From: Daphnia pulex
Lineage: Eukaryota; Arthropoda; Branchiopoda; Diplostraca; Daphniidae
Length of the DNA stretch: 64,000 bases
Assembly: GCF_021134715.1 (NCBI RefSeq)
Contig: NC_060026.1
Location: forward strand, 13,693,001 to 13,757,000
Direction of reading: 5' to 3'
Every line of letters begins with the position of its first letter. Position 1 is the stretch's first letter. Positions 3,001 to 45,670 of this stretch are shown here, piece by piece. Both the position numbers and the translations under genes were made by a program. The notes below the pieces were generated by a model that was not told where the DNA came from, did not search any database, and was given only the letters and a program-made list of their open reading frames with translations.

Positions 3001-4900
3001 CGATCGAATCAATCGACCGAACGGCGCCAAATTTGAAATTCTTTTTGAAAAAAAAAAATATTTGCGCAGGAAAAACAACAAAAAAAAAGAAACGGTGAAA
3101 ATAATAACGTGAATTATTATTAGACGATTCAATGTAGTGTGAAAAGAAAAAAAAAGGAGCTAATGCGCTGCTGACCGCAACTGAAGATTCGCCCAATAAA
3201 ACACAAAATAGTCGGCCCGGCAATATATAGTGTCTAGGGTTTTCTTGTTTTCTATATATCCGACGACGACCCCATTCATGTCCGTTCAACTCGGCAAAAC
3301 GACACGCCTATTAACATTTTCTAAAATAACAAAAACTTGAATGAAACCAAAAAAAAAAAGCCCAAAAATTCTATCGACCTTCGTATTTTCCTACCCTTTT
3401 GTCTTTGAGGCATTTCCCCCCTCACTCAGTCAAACTTTTGAATTGTTTCATTCACATTTTCGTTTTTATTATTTGCCTTTCGCTGGCGATATGTCATGAT
3501 CGTCATCATCATATAAAAACTAAACCATAAAATGGTCGGATTTTTCTTTCTAGACCTTTTCGGACCCCATTCGCCGCCTTTTTGGTCATCGTGAGACTCC
3601 GGTCAAACATTTTCCACACCGGGTTCTCTATTTGAATTGTCTATCTCTTTTTTGACATTTCCCCTTCACCCGGTAAAAAAAGAAAAAGAAGATGGAAGGG
3701 AGAGAGGAGGAGGAGCTTCCGGTCGTACCTGGGGTAGAATAAAATTTATTTTTATTTTTTTTTACGATGTTTGAAGGTGGTTAGCGCGCATGTCACCCGC
3801 CTTTTTGCCCACCCCTCCTACTGCACGTCGCTATAGCTCCGCCACTCATCGACGAGAGAATCGTCATCGACCGTTGACCGTCAATAAAACACACAAAGGC
3901 TACCTGCTACTTCTTCTTCTTCTTCTTTCCTGTGTACTTTTAACTTGTGTCTTTTTATTTTACTGCACAGGAGATGACCCCGCTGCCAATTGGTGGCCAT
4001 TCATTTGTTTGTTTTCGCCGACAAAAAAAAAATGTAATTATTATTTTAATGCTGGAGGCTATTTTTGCGCTGATTATATTTTTCTGTACTTTTTTGGGAT
4101 AGAAAAATGTTATTTCTATTTTTTAATGGTTGATCGGTTTGTGTAATCGTCGAGGCCCCGATGATTTTCGATGCGCGGAGGTGGTCGCGCGGTTTTGGCG
4201 CGCAATTCAAACAGCTGGAAAATTGGCAGTTTTGTTGGTTTGGCCCTTTTTTTCTCTACACGAAAGAAGAAAAAAAAAGATGCGCCCACAAGAAGAAGAA
4301 GAATACCAAAAATGTATTTTTTTTTTTCGCTGTGACGGGCTCTGACCATCTCACCACTTCCGGGGGACACACAAAACTATATACACGCCGTTTTCTCTCT
4401 CTCTCTTTATATTTTTTTTTTTTTTTGGTGAAGGGGGGGTCTACTTGTGTCGAGTCGACTTTCGAGCCTCGAAAAGAAATTATCATAATTACACGGCGGC
4501 AATTGTTTTTTTTTTTTCTTGCGGCCCGACATACACCCAAAATGTTTTTCTATATTTTCTTTTTTTTTTGTTCAAAATTTAAGTTTTTTCAAATAAATGC
4601 AGGTACTAGTTGTCCAAACAAACGAAAAAAAAAAAAAAAATTAAAAAAAAAAATTGGCGGGAAATTTGAAAATTTGATTTTAAAAATGTAAAAGAAAAGA
4701 AAATGGTCGGTCTGAACTATAGCGGTGCGCGCCTGTGTTTATCATTGTAATGACGTCTCATTACCACCGAAAGGTGTATGATAATATTATGTACATACGG
4801 GAGAAAACGGCGGTCATCAGTAGTCCCAATACAGGCGCTTATACGGGACAGTCTTAACTTATTCAGAAGAAGAAGATGTGGCCAGAGAATAACAAAAAAT

Positions 4901-41173: not shown

Positions 41174-43371
41174 TATCTATTCAAGTAAATAATTTATTCA
41201 TAAAATAAATAATGGATTTAATTAATATGCGCTAAGACTCACTTATGAGGTAGGTAGTGCAGCACTCGAAGAGCTAAAGTGATATAAAACTCGCTGGAAA
41301 CAGAACGCTAAATACGGTTGTATTTATCTCATTTCGGTCGGTAACATCGTTTATATAACACACCTGTGTGTGTAGACTAGAAAGATTTCGTTCTTTTGGA
41401 ACCAATGACTGACGATCATTTCTTTTTTGGCTGCTATAAAAGTCACGTGGCGGCGTGGTTATTCAACGTGATATAGGCTGCTGCCCCATCGTCTGGGCTA
41501 GGTAACACTCACTGGAGAAACGAGCAACAGTCTTATACTGTCAATCAAATATTAATATTTCACACCATATGCCATAGAAAACAAAATTACACGTTGGGTA
41601 ATAACCAATATGGAAAGCTCTAGCAGTCCACAGGTCACAAAATATCAATAAATTTAGAAACATACAGTACAAATTGATAGCATTGTATTTGAACGAGAGA
41701 TAAGCCACACGAGTTGCGTTAGGTATACTGTTTGTACATGAATGCATGTTTGTTCAATAATTGATTACAATCTCCACAAAAAAAAAAGAAAATGGGAATC
41801 ACGTGAAAGATCAATTAGATGACGGAGCAGATGACCATGCACATACTCAGCTCAAGAATTTTGTCGAAAATGATTAGGAATTGATTTGTTCCATAGATTG
41901 GGTGCTTCTTGTAATACCTGCGTGTCTGGAACGGTCGTAAGAGGCTAAACTTGTTCGATCGTCCAACTTCCCGATCAAAGCTGATCAGCTGGACGGCTAT
42001 ATTGTTTTTAGATATATAGGAAATCGTTAGCCAATGGCCAATCCAGACAGTCCAAATAAAATGGTCTTACCTTCTGATAACCCCTTCGTTAATGGGATAA
42101 TTAACAACAAAACGACGCCCAGCCACAGACACGTGTTTCGTTTCTGTGAATTAAAGTATAAAGTACATTAAGTACTCATCCGTTATTCGTTCATTTTTTC
42201 TTATTTAGGTTTTTCGTGTTTAGAAATTCAAGACGGATATAAAGGTCAGTCAACTTGAGGTAAGTTTGGTATAATAAATCAACTACTGGGCTACTTCCTC
42301 TTTTAAATGAGGTCAAATGCAGATAGTAGAGTAAAAGCAACAAAATGAATCCCGCTCAAGAAAAATTTTACGTAATCTCTAGACATTGACGCATGGCTGC
42401 TTCTACAATGCGATAAGATTCCCATTCGAAGCACCGTTACATAACGAAGTAGGGAAATTACAAACATTTAAATAGAGACAAATTTTCTTAGTTCCTACCA
42501 TTTTCCGGATATCACGATCTGATCATCGAGAATTCGATTTTATTTCTTTTTTATTTCGTATTCAATAAAAATTCACAATTTTTGAAGTCGAGAAAAAAGT
42601 AAAGATGCTTTCGAAGGTCTGCACCTCTGGCAACTAACTGGGGATAAAAGTAGGACAGAGACAACTGGATATTCTATGTAACCAACCATAGTGAAACTTG
42701 TTTTTCGTTGAAAACCGCAGAGAAGTCTACGGTTAAATTCAGTGTCCTAACTATAAATTCCTTTTACTCGATTACTGGGCGGTTGGTCGTCCTTAATAAA
42801 GAAGAAAGTATATCGAATCGACGAATGAAAGTGACCAAAGTCCGTGACAGAAGGATAAGCTAATTTAAACAACATGTCAAACTAATAAAAAATGCTACTT
42901 CAATACAGCTTGGACGGAGTAGTATAGTGGACGAGAAAATTTTGTTTTAGGTCAATGCCCTAGGGTTGGGTATATTCAAGTCTAACGGGACATAACGTAT
43001 AATTGAAGAAGAATGCGTAATAATGAACTCCACTTTTTCGTGAAAATTTCCAACATCGCTACCTTGGTCTGTCCATTAATAATGCATCCTTCAATTTCAA
43101 AGTCCTTTCAAAATAACGTCCATTGGTTCCGTAGTAGAAAAAAGAATATACCTGCTATCAACCAGATCGATAAGATGGAGAAATTTGAATATCACGTTTT
43201 TTTTTTGCTGGTATGAGATGGATTAGTTGTTAATTGTCTCACTAGATGACCTTGAATGAGCTTGTCACTTGTCAGCAGATCTGTCAAAAAACACAAGAAA
43301 AGACTAAACAGCATCCCAGGCTTGGACTTTCTTTAATTTTAATGGGTAAACCATGGGGTAAACTAAGCTGA
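41174..43371. other. Intergenic region upstream of the DOMON gene
   Basis: No credible gene was found. The first 300 bp should contain the DOMON promoter and 5'UTR intron. A tRNA A-box-like word TAGTATAGTGG (42920-42930) is followed about 60 bp later by a weak B-box-like TATTCAAGTC, but no acceptor stem forms. The rest is unremarkable AT-rich sequence. Confidence 0.6.
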
Positions 43372-43378
43372 ATTATAC

Positions 43379-43408
43379 CAGAGCTATAGAATGTATGGTC
43401 TAACCACT
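43379..43408 (+). repeat. Left terminal inverted repeat
   Basis: Thirty bp identical to the reverse complement of 45084-45113. Identity stops abruptly inside the element. Confidence 0.9.
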
Positions 43409-43809
43409 TATATGGAAAGGCCTTCCATTGCCTTTTCCCCCTGGAAGTGTTCTGGCCAGACCTTAGTTGCAGAGCCACAGCGGGTGTGTTGGGAAACACA
43501 ATTTTTTTTTTCTTTGTTTTTCAAGTACCAAAGTTGTCAGAAAAATATTGCTTTTTCGTCTGCACTAGGAAAAGTAAACAATAAAATTTTTAATTTGTAA
43601 GCCACTAAAGCCAGCCAACATCAAAATATTGCAAAATAACAGTAAGAAGAGTGAAAAGTTTTTAACTTGTGTTAATTTGTATTGCATTGCATTTTAATAC
43701 ATTTCCAGATAAGATAAAGACTGTTTTGATAGCAAAAAATTTCCTTTATTAAAGAATTCTTGGCAATTTTAAAGTTAGTTTGTACTTTAGTTTTCGACGG
43801 TAACAAGCT

Positions 43810-44787
43810 TCACAAGCAGTTAAATATTTCCTTCTCTTTACCATGTAACCACGATTGATAAGGGATAATAAGGATAATAAGGGGTGTAATAACAGTCTCT
43901 AATTGTGAAGGATCTTGCATATTCTCCTCCTGAAACTCAGTGTGGGATACGACAAACTCAACATTCTTCTTAGGTAGATGAGGTGGTAGATGTACTTTAG
44001 TAGAGGTGGTTGTCTCTGTTGGAGCGGGAAATTGCTTAGCCTCTTCATGGAACTCAGTTTGAGATAGGCACGGTGATAGGACAATCTCATCATGATTCTC
44101 AGCTAGATGTAGGACTTCAGGAGTGATGTAAGTTGCTGTTCGTAATGGATATTGCTCAGCATCCTCATGGAACTCAGTGTGTAATTGTACTACCTTACTG
44201 ATCTAATGAAATTTGTGGTAATAACATTAGTTGTGCATTCTATATTAATTGTTTATGATTAAATACCAATTCACTGTTGGTAGGACCAGAAATTGACGCA
44301 ACTTTCTTGTAGCAGTGTTGTTGCTCAGACAAATTACATTCATGTAAAAATGTATGAGGTTGAAAAGGAAGGTAAAGTGTATCTTCAAGTGCATTTGCCT
44401 TGTCAGGAAACTTTAGTTCTTCTGTACCTGATTCAGAAGACAAATATTAAAGGTGTAATCAAGATTAGCTTATCTTTAAGTTGTAAATAACAATTGTTGT
44501 ACGCTTCTACCTGACCAAGAGATGGAAAGGTTTTTGGAACCAAAAATGGATTTCGATCAGGTAATTCACAGAGGGATCAAGGTTTTCTTGAGTAGTGAAA
44601 GGTAGTCTAGATGTTGATTTCTTTCCAATGGAATTGTAGTTATGTTTCTTACTGAGCAATGTTTCCCCAACTGTATTTGTTTCTAATAAGGGAAAATTAA
44701 TAATTACATAGTTTTGATACAAGTATCAATATAACTCAAACCTGTCTGTTGATATTTGACTTTGACTATTTTCACTTGACTTTTCAT
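43810..44787 (-). CDS. Unknown spliced gene carried inside the TIR element
   Basis: A four-exon model in transcript order: 44787-44742, 44682-44653, 44427-44267, 44202-43810 (630 nt, 209 aa). Every junction is GT-AG and the phases fit without a stop. I do not recognise the protein. It has no signal peptide; it starts MKSQVKIVKVKYQQT and is Glu/Pro/His/Thr-rich. From about residue 90 it contains three diverged copies of a motif of type HTEFHEDAEQYP / QTEFHEEAKQFP / HTEFQEENMQDP spaced about 38-42 residues apart, each followed by a Thr-rich stretch. The end is hydrophobic (LIILII) then SWLHGKEKEIFNCL. It could be an accessory or regulatory element protein, or a captured host gene. The intron after exon 2 (about 225 bp) is the least certain; it uses the donor TCA/GTAAGA. 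Confidence 0.5.
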
Positions 44788-45083
44788 GTGCGACACGACA
44801 CTGACGAACAACACACCTTTTTGTGGACATTTCAAAATTTAGAGCATTTTTCAAAAGTTTTAAAACGTGAGTGAAATAATCAGTCGGAAACCAGTATAAC
44901 GTGTGGATAACAAAATGGCGTGAGAAAAACGAAAAACGAAAATTAACACAATTTCAGTAGATGGCCGCTGTTGGCGCTGAGAATAAGGTCTAATACATCG
45001 ATACTTAAGCACATTTTCGCACTTTCGATTGGTAATCGTTGCTGCAACTTTGGAAAAATTTCCGAGAGGAAAATTTAACAGGC

Positions 45084-45113
45084 AGTGGTTAGACCATACA
45101 TTCTATAGCTCTG
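45084..45113 (-). repeat. Right terminal inverted repeat
   Basis: Perfect reverse complement of 43379-43408, followed directly by the ATTATAC target duplication. Confidence 0.9.
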
Positions 45114-45120
45114 ATTATAC

Positions 45121-45384
45121 ATTTCAAATTACTCTATAAAAAGCAGAATGTTCTAAACAACGATAATCCTGAACATTTCTAAGATTAGATAAGTAATTCT
45201 ATGCTTAAATAATAAAAAACCCGCTTTCTACTATCCCCACAACGTTAAAAGGACCCGTTGGCGCACGATCCTAATTTAGCGGTTGTGCAACTCAGCATCC
45301 CGAACTTGTCTATAACCCCGCTCTTTTTTTTAAAGATAGATACGCCAATTTATGTTCAGCGGTGAAAGTCTATAGTAATAATGC
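45121..45384. other. Spacer between two mobile-element-like insertions
   Basis: No gene was seen. The last part (about 45320-45360: CCCGCTCT then a T/A-run then AGATACGCCAATTTAT) matches the segment at 49409-49446, showing that it belongs to the duplicated flank of the C1q gene. Confidence 0.6.
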
Positions 45385-45670
45385 TATGCGTAACTGGGTA
45401 GAGTGACGGAATCGCACTAGTAACAGTTGCCATAAATAACAGCTTTTTTTTTTGCTCATAATGATACAGTGTTAAAAGTAAAGTGTTCCATAAGTATATC
45501 ACTAATAATTTGATTGTTTAGTAACTCAAAAGTCAAAACAGTACCCATTAATAACTAGTTCTTTAAGTAAAATGTCTCATAAGAACGAAGTTCTTATGGT
45601 TCTTGTATCATAAGAACTTCGTTGCATTGATAAATTGTCTCACTAGTATTTCTGTTCACAAGTAACATCA

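Follow-up and report, generated by a model that had tools for sequence, protein, structure and literature searches.

A non-autonomous Daphnia pulex element with P-type ends and remnants of a P-type transposase gene

The element, its ends and its insertion site

The window, by which we mean the whole 64,000-nucleotide stretch of Daphnia pulex DNA that was analyzed (contig NC_060026.1, positions 13,693,001 to 13,757,000), carries at 43379 to 45113 an element of 1,735 bp bounded by terminal inverted repeats (TIRs). The left TIR, CAGAGCTATAGAATGTATGGTCTAACCACT (43379 to 43408, plus strand), and the right TIR (45084 to 45113, minus strand) match each other at 30 of 30 nucleotides, and ATTATAC stands immediately outside them as a 7-bp target duplication (43372 to 43378 and 45114 to 45120). 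The perfect termini and the duplication had both been listed in the first-pass annotation, and both held.

The element was inserted into an older repeat (43257 to 45314, composed of 43257 to 43378 plus 45114 to 45314). The two window flanks were joined at one target copy and searched against the genome, and at least 44 arms of this repeat, at 92 to 96% identity, were found to run through the junction (40 of 61 candidates scored). At nine loci (L057 to L065) a single arm was then aligned; all nine lacked the element and had a single target copy, which reads ATTATAC in eight of them and ATTAGAC in L064. The first-pass annotation had looked to empty orthologous sites as a sign of mobility; the empty sites obtained here, from a comparison within one genome, are paralogous and not orthologous.

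The host repeat has features of its own. Its arms, of about 270 to 300 bp, abut head to head in five of the nine loci (L058, L059, L061, L063 and L065), forming a palindrome of about 575 bp; they nearly abut in L062 and lie apart in L057, and the sequences of L060 and L064 are too short to tell. An exact 14-bp direct repeat, AATTGTCTCACTAG, flanks the host repeat on both sides (43232 to 43245 and 45633 to 45646) and may reflect either chance or an older insertion.

When the whole element was used as a query against its own genome, at least 72 matching stretches were recovered (40 of 54 first-look candidates scored). In at least 22 places the left part (within 43379 to 43510) directly adjoins the right part (within 44936 to 45113), giving a unit of about 300 bp that, judged by its sequence, is a short internally deleted copy. 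The long form with the interior seen in the window is present as a single copy. Scans for end patterns, in which up to three mismatches were allowed, recovered 70 ends of one related TIR type and 25 of a second type; ends with the TIR of the window element numbered three, of which two are its own. Reversed patterns, scanned in the same genome as a control, found none. Since the ends recur genome-wide, the control gave no matches and the paralogous empty sites hold a single target copy, the ends are beyond chance, and the termini, which could have been a peculiarity of this locus, are not confined to it. Within the subset of loci retrieved, both ends were found at eight distinct ones, of which seven have exact 7-bp duplications, all different (ATTATAC in the window, CTACTAC in L005, AACCGAT in L008, CCCGCGC in L013, GTATCAC in L020, CCTTGGG in L021 and GTCCTGC in L023), and in L022 six of the seven bases match. 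Four of the eight, L020 to L023, belong to a related end type, ATACTGGTA.

Transposase remnants and P-type relatives in the same genome

The first-pass annotation had found no recognizable transposase in the element. Against relatives fetched from the genome, however, three short remnants could be recognized. Together they show that the element keeps parts of a P-type transposase gene, all read from the minus strand and in their original order: the THAP start, reduced to about 20 codons, then 16 residues that lie close to the C-terminus, and last the C-terminal tail. The first, MSTKRCVVRQCRVAHEKSSE (44771 to 44830, minus strand), is the putative remnant of transposase exon 1 and is 68% identical over 22 residues to locus L009 (E 2.7e-6), whose THAP frame lies on the same strand and begins at the same ATG as the first exon predicted in the window. 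The second, GYMVKRRKYLTACEAC (43803 to 43850, minus strand), is 75% identical over 16 residues to L082 (E 1.7e-4), and its DNA, compared with the L082 locus alone, is 80% identical over 50 bp (E 9e-8). The third, the tail SKTKVQTNFKIAKNS (43753 to 43797, minus strand), matches L082 at 80% over 15 residues (E 0.004) and L010 at 82% over 22 residues (E 7.6e-6), the L010 copy having stops across this region.

The left 427 bp of the element (43379 to 43805), made up of the left end and the 3' portion of the former transposase gene, is shared with L010 at 90% identity. In L010, a broken transposase C-terminus with stops and frame changes, recognizable by its similarity to the full-length relative L067 described below (E 6.7e-14), runs into this common stretch; the C-terminal region of L082 is closer to the L010 remnant (67%) than is that of L067 (44%). 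The L009 domain reached E 2.2e-4 and 22.4 bits against the THAP profile PF05485, just below the cut-off of 23.9 and with one in-frame stop read as X, and it aligns to the THAP domain of L067 at E 1.7e-20. L011 and L012 hold only later, broken parts of the THAP frame and lack its start. The THAP remnant of the window, taken alone with its roughly 20 codons, had no Pfam match, and the window copy showed no trace of the RNase-H-like catalytic domain, in keeping with a non-autonomous element. The element thus has P ends and lacks most of a transposase gene, as an internally deleted P derivative does. In the searches made, pieces of this family's own transposase came from L009 to L012 and L082 only.

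A match between an exon-2 frame and the C-terminal region of L082 (TIPLERNQHLDY, E 0.021) does not fit the order of the gene and was discounted as probably due to chance. Beside the L010 element, a frame resembling a Ulp1-type peptidase and a long frame resembling a reverse transcriptase were noted by eye (L010:2-508 and 3005-4237).

A search by THAP domain led to a sister group of elements with the termini CAGAGCTATAGATACC or CAGAGCAATAGATACC. Its full-length member (L067, also L069) is 5,022 bp long (C7:3952755-3957776), has TIRs that match at 30 of 30 bp and start with CAGAGCAATAGATACC, and is flanked by the duplication TAAAAGG. It encodes a THAP domain (E 8.7e-14) and a TNP-like RNase H domain (PF21787, E 1e-20), the latter matched 77 times in the genome. 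In the gene of these cousins the THAP exon is followed by short exons, and these by one that contains in-frame repeats; L067 has four such repeats, placed after the THAP domain and before the catalytic part. Two 1,729-bp deletion derivatives of the L067 type, L050 and L051, keep the 5' part with the repeats and have lost the core; since they are 100% identical to each other and occupy different sites with different 7-bp duplications, they have moved recently. The first-pass annotation had expected a longer relative with the same termini to reveal the transposase; L067, which encodes one, has nearly the same TIR start.

At the blastn level the window element has no similarity to these cousins; what links them is the first bases of the TIRs and the protein remnants. 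The first 12 bases of the window TIR, CAGAGCTATAGA, are identical in a further cousin, L040, and match L067 at 11 of 12 positions, the TIRs diverging farther in. The window element accordingly has in common with a member encoding THAP and RNase-H domains the beginning of its TIR, and its duplication, at 7 bp, falls within the 7 bp, in some cases 8 bp, seen among the P-type cousins. The length of the duplication had been taken as foreign to the common superfamilies, a view contradicted by these cousins and by Galileo, a P-superfamily element with mostly 7-bp duplications (PMC4168063; this and the other papers cited are drawn on in part). A new superfamily, suggested by the 7-bp duplication together with an unfamiliar gene, is a reading to which we give practically no credence, given the THAP start, the C-terminal remnants, and the TIR start and duplication length held in common with an RNase-H-encoding cousin; it was rejected once relatives with THAP and RNase-H domains had been found. 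The hAT, Mutator, PIF and similar groups were likewise dropped after the THAP and transposase remnants turned up. What the first-pass annotation had proposed as a new non-autonomous family is thus a mobile, non-autonomous TIR element, but one within the P superfamily and not of a new class.

Two other loci were considered and rejected. L054 (C12:7206388), with an open THAP frame of 363 aa, was tried as an autonomous partner but has no such TIR pair and no RNase-H match nearby, and L066, a P-type gene at 3.51 Mb on C12, is adjoined only by a short copy of a related end type.

The interior and its possible origins

The 0.92 kb between the remnants (43853 to 44770, minus strand), which includes the possible exons, was found only here in the genome by DNA and protein searches: in the 133-Mb genome, positions 43806 to 44769 matched only themselves at the DNA level, as did the two largest interior open reading frame (ORF) pieces at the protein level. 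The interior gave no Pfam match above cut-off, a 251-aa model had no match in the PDB, and no relative of the 130-aa ORF was found among viral contigs.

The first-pass annotation had placed a four-exon open gene model here. When any GT-AG sites were allowed, the minus strand did hold a four-exon open path of 257 aa, a length also reached by 2 of 40 shuffled sequences; with strict sites, the best path was 149 aa and none of 100 shuffles reached it. In a further, laxer run, with a less strict rule for acceptors, the best minus-strand path was 251 aa in five exons when donors had to score at least 4 of 8 (3 of 200 shuffles), 224 aa for a threshold of 5 (also 3 of 200) and 149 aa for one of 6 (2 of 200). 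On the plus strand, paths of 121 aa with strict sites (6 of 100 shuffles) and 191 aa with loose sites (10 of 40) were obtained. The long paths from the THAP start rely on weak donors, with scores of 4 or 5 out of 8. When donors of at least 6 are required, the best path, that of 149 aa, excludes the THAP start. The donor CAG|GTTTGA at 44741 scores 5 of 8 and yielded no more than 77 aa with the eight acceptors tried; close to the THAP start, the top-scoring donor is AAG|GTGTGT at 44816 (7 of 8). The spliced-gene model is thus weakly supported, lying marginally above chance.

The longest single stop-free frame, of 130 aa (43810 to 44202, minus strand), was reached by 11 of 500 shuffles. Self-comparison showed that it contains a unit of about 40 codons repeated once at 72%, and its last 13 codons overlie the GYMVKRRKYLTACEAC transposase remnant in a different frame. 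The two copies of the repeat, each of about 120 bp, differ at 7, 11 and 11 of 29 sites at the three codon positions, and a supposed third unit had no match at the same spacing. As there is no third-position bias and the third unit is mismatched, the repeat carries no sign of coding selection. From its sequence, the interior may once have been a gene; that it encodes a working protein is doubtful.

The termini of P type, the insertion into an older repeat with a 7-bp duplication and the transposase scraps from both ends of the gene are observed directly. We consider it somewhat probable that the element is a non-autonomous DNA transposon of the P superfamily whose middle is a leftover transposase linker after deletions. 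A P-type transposase with THAP and RNase-H domains, made elsewhere in the genome, would have cut and pasted the element through its ends. With less certainty, the 0.92-kb middle could be the fast-evolving linker of this family between the THAP and catalytic parts, left behind by large deletions, and the "spliced gene" would then be the 5' part of the transposase gene in decay rather than a functional gene. In P elements, internal deletions arise when gaps at excision sites are repaired imperfectly. Deletion of this kind is touched on in part of PMC4168063. The linker reading is in line with the in-frame repeat in the window ORF, whose position corresponds to that of the repeat exon in the cousins, and with the 1.7-kb derivatives L050 and L051, which retain the segment from the THAP exon to the repeats; and since most of the family's own transposase seems to be missing from the genome, no separate lost parent is needed. 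Against it, the six-frame segments of the interior showed no similarity to any linker among 76 loci, where the search returned the end remnants and two weak tblastn matches (E 0.028 and 0.034), with blastn E values of 0.2 or more; it further requires two separate deletions, and the window copy has no Pfam THAP match.

Some relatives have acquired interiors of another kind, as seen in L040, an element of 1,849 bp (L040:1262-3110, at about 2.207 Mb on C5) with the 8-bp duplication GTCTACAA. L040 has in common with L051 433 bp of the THAP end (83%) and 265 bp of the other end (92%). Its middle aligns over 1.1 kb, exons and introns alike, at 90% identity with a NUDT9-like gene (L071, C10:9417385-9418554) whose exons match ADP-ribose pyrophosphatase 1q33 (E 1.4e-48); no such TIR was found in the 4.2-kb parent locus. 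The comparison of L040 with its parent shows, at the level of sequence, capture of a host NUDT9-like gene together with its introns. The L040 THAP frame ahead of the captured gene has in-frame stops.

A second group, typified by L068 (L068:218-3331, the same as L073; also L074 to L080), comprises THAP elements of 2.5 to 3.2 kb with a distinct 2.35-kb interior that is 97 to 100% identical to that of L068. Of the eight distinct loci examined, six have both ends together with a duplication of 7 or 8 bp, the exceptions being L076, with both ends and no duplication, and L079, without ends; this family looks recently active from the likeness of its copies. One ORF of the L068 interior had no PDB match, and its Pfam matches, Paralemmin being the best, were all below the cut-offs.

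A Pack-type capture, in which a host gene fragment with introns came to lie between P-type ends and used the transposase promoter and start codon, is therefore an origin with precedent in the same genome for the window interior as well, and we regard it as possible rather than probable. The window element has the same layout as L040, the L068-type elements bear another interior in six distinct complete copies, and the open multi-exon path of the window beats 197 of 200 shuffles; yet neither DNA nor protein searches of the 133-Mb genome turned up a parent locus, paths from the THAP start depend on the weak donors noted above, including that at 44741, and the interior lacks Pfam matches above cut-off and PDB matches. 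The broader proposal, that this P lineage repeatedly captures spliced host genes behind its own promoter and THAP start and that the window element is a third case whose parent was lost or has diverged, we think unlikely. The gene-capturing element of the first-pass annotation is thus borne out by the cousin L040, while capture by the window copy itself is a possibility.

It is also conceivable, though in our estimation quite improbable, that the middle is filler taken up during break repair, either a copy of an unrelated non-genic site or another degraded repeat, and that its frames arose by chance. The marginal ORF statistics would fit such filler, and the non-P interiors of Anopheles P-MITEs have been discussed in a similar way (PMC1562414). 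Its source would be expected in the genome unless lost, and none was found; moreover, all four tests of the laxer run fell at 1.0 to 2.2% of shuffles, leaning to a coding past.

Comparison with known systems

Among the matches listed in a term-based search of open-licence papers, no title or abstract beginning named gene capture by P-superfamily elements, nor did any name the window family in Daphnia; this silence counts only weakly towards absence. The main text of PMC8903248, the source used here for plant Pack-TYPE elements, contains neither the term "P element" nor the term "animal". Paralogous empty sites and a 7-bp duplication make the window element a clean example of the P superfamily, and L040, for which captured gene, introns and parent occur in one genome, makes the proposal that P-MITE interiors were copied from an ectopic site directly testable.

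The derivative KP of the Drosophila P element keeps the DNA-binding part of the P gene, whereas in the window copy no more than about 20 codons of it are left. The window element is otherwise like Drosophila P and derivatives such as KP, which have 31-bp TIRs, a spliced gene that begins with THAP and deleted copies of 0.5 to 2.8 kb, but their duplications are of 8 bp and not 7 (PMC7776569). Splicing joins four reading frames in the P gene of Drosophila (PMC7776569), so that introns, which the first-pass annotation had thought uncommon in an element of this kind, are no anomaly in a P-type gene. Duplications of 8 bp are likewise described for zebrafish Pdre2 (PMC10983969). Galileo of Drosophila resembles the window element in its mostly 7-bp duplications and its THAP-bearing transposase (PMC4168063) and differs in its long TIRs, which are internally repetitive, those of the window element measuring 30 bp.

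Plant Pack-TYPE elements have TIR ends around captured gene DNA, a likeness that holds here for the cousin L040 only; they belong to the MULE, CACTA, hAT, PIF and Mariner groups (PMC8903248), and the window interior differs from theirs in that it could be traced to no identifiable host gene, no second copy having been found in the genome. The P-MITEs of Anopheles gambiae, of 205 to 2,450 bp, a range that includes the window element, are also non-autonomous and have P-type ends and subterminal parts around unrelated, non-P interiors, the origin of which is called controversial, with P masters in the same genome; they differ in having 8-bp duplications and forming repeated families, whereas the window element has a 7-bp duplication and a long form present in a single copy (PMC1562414).
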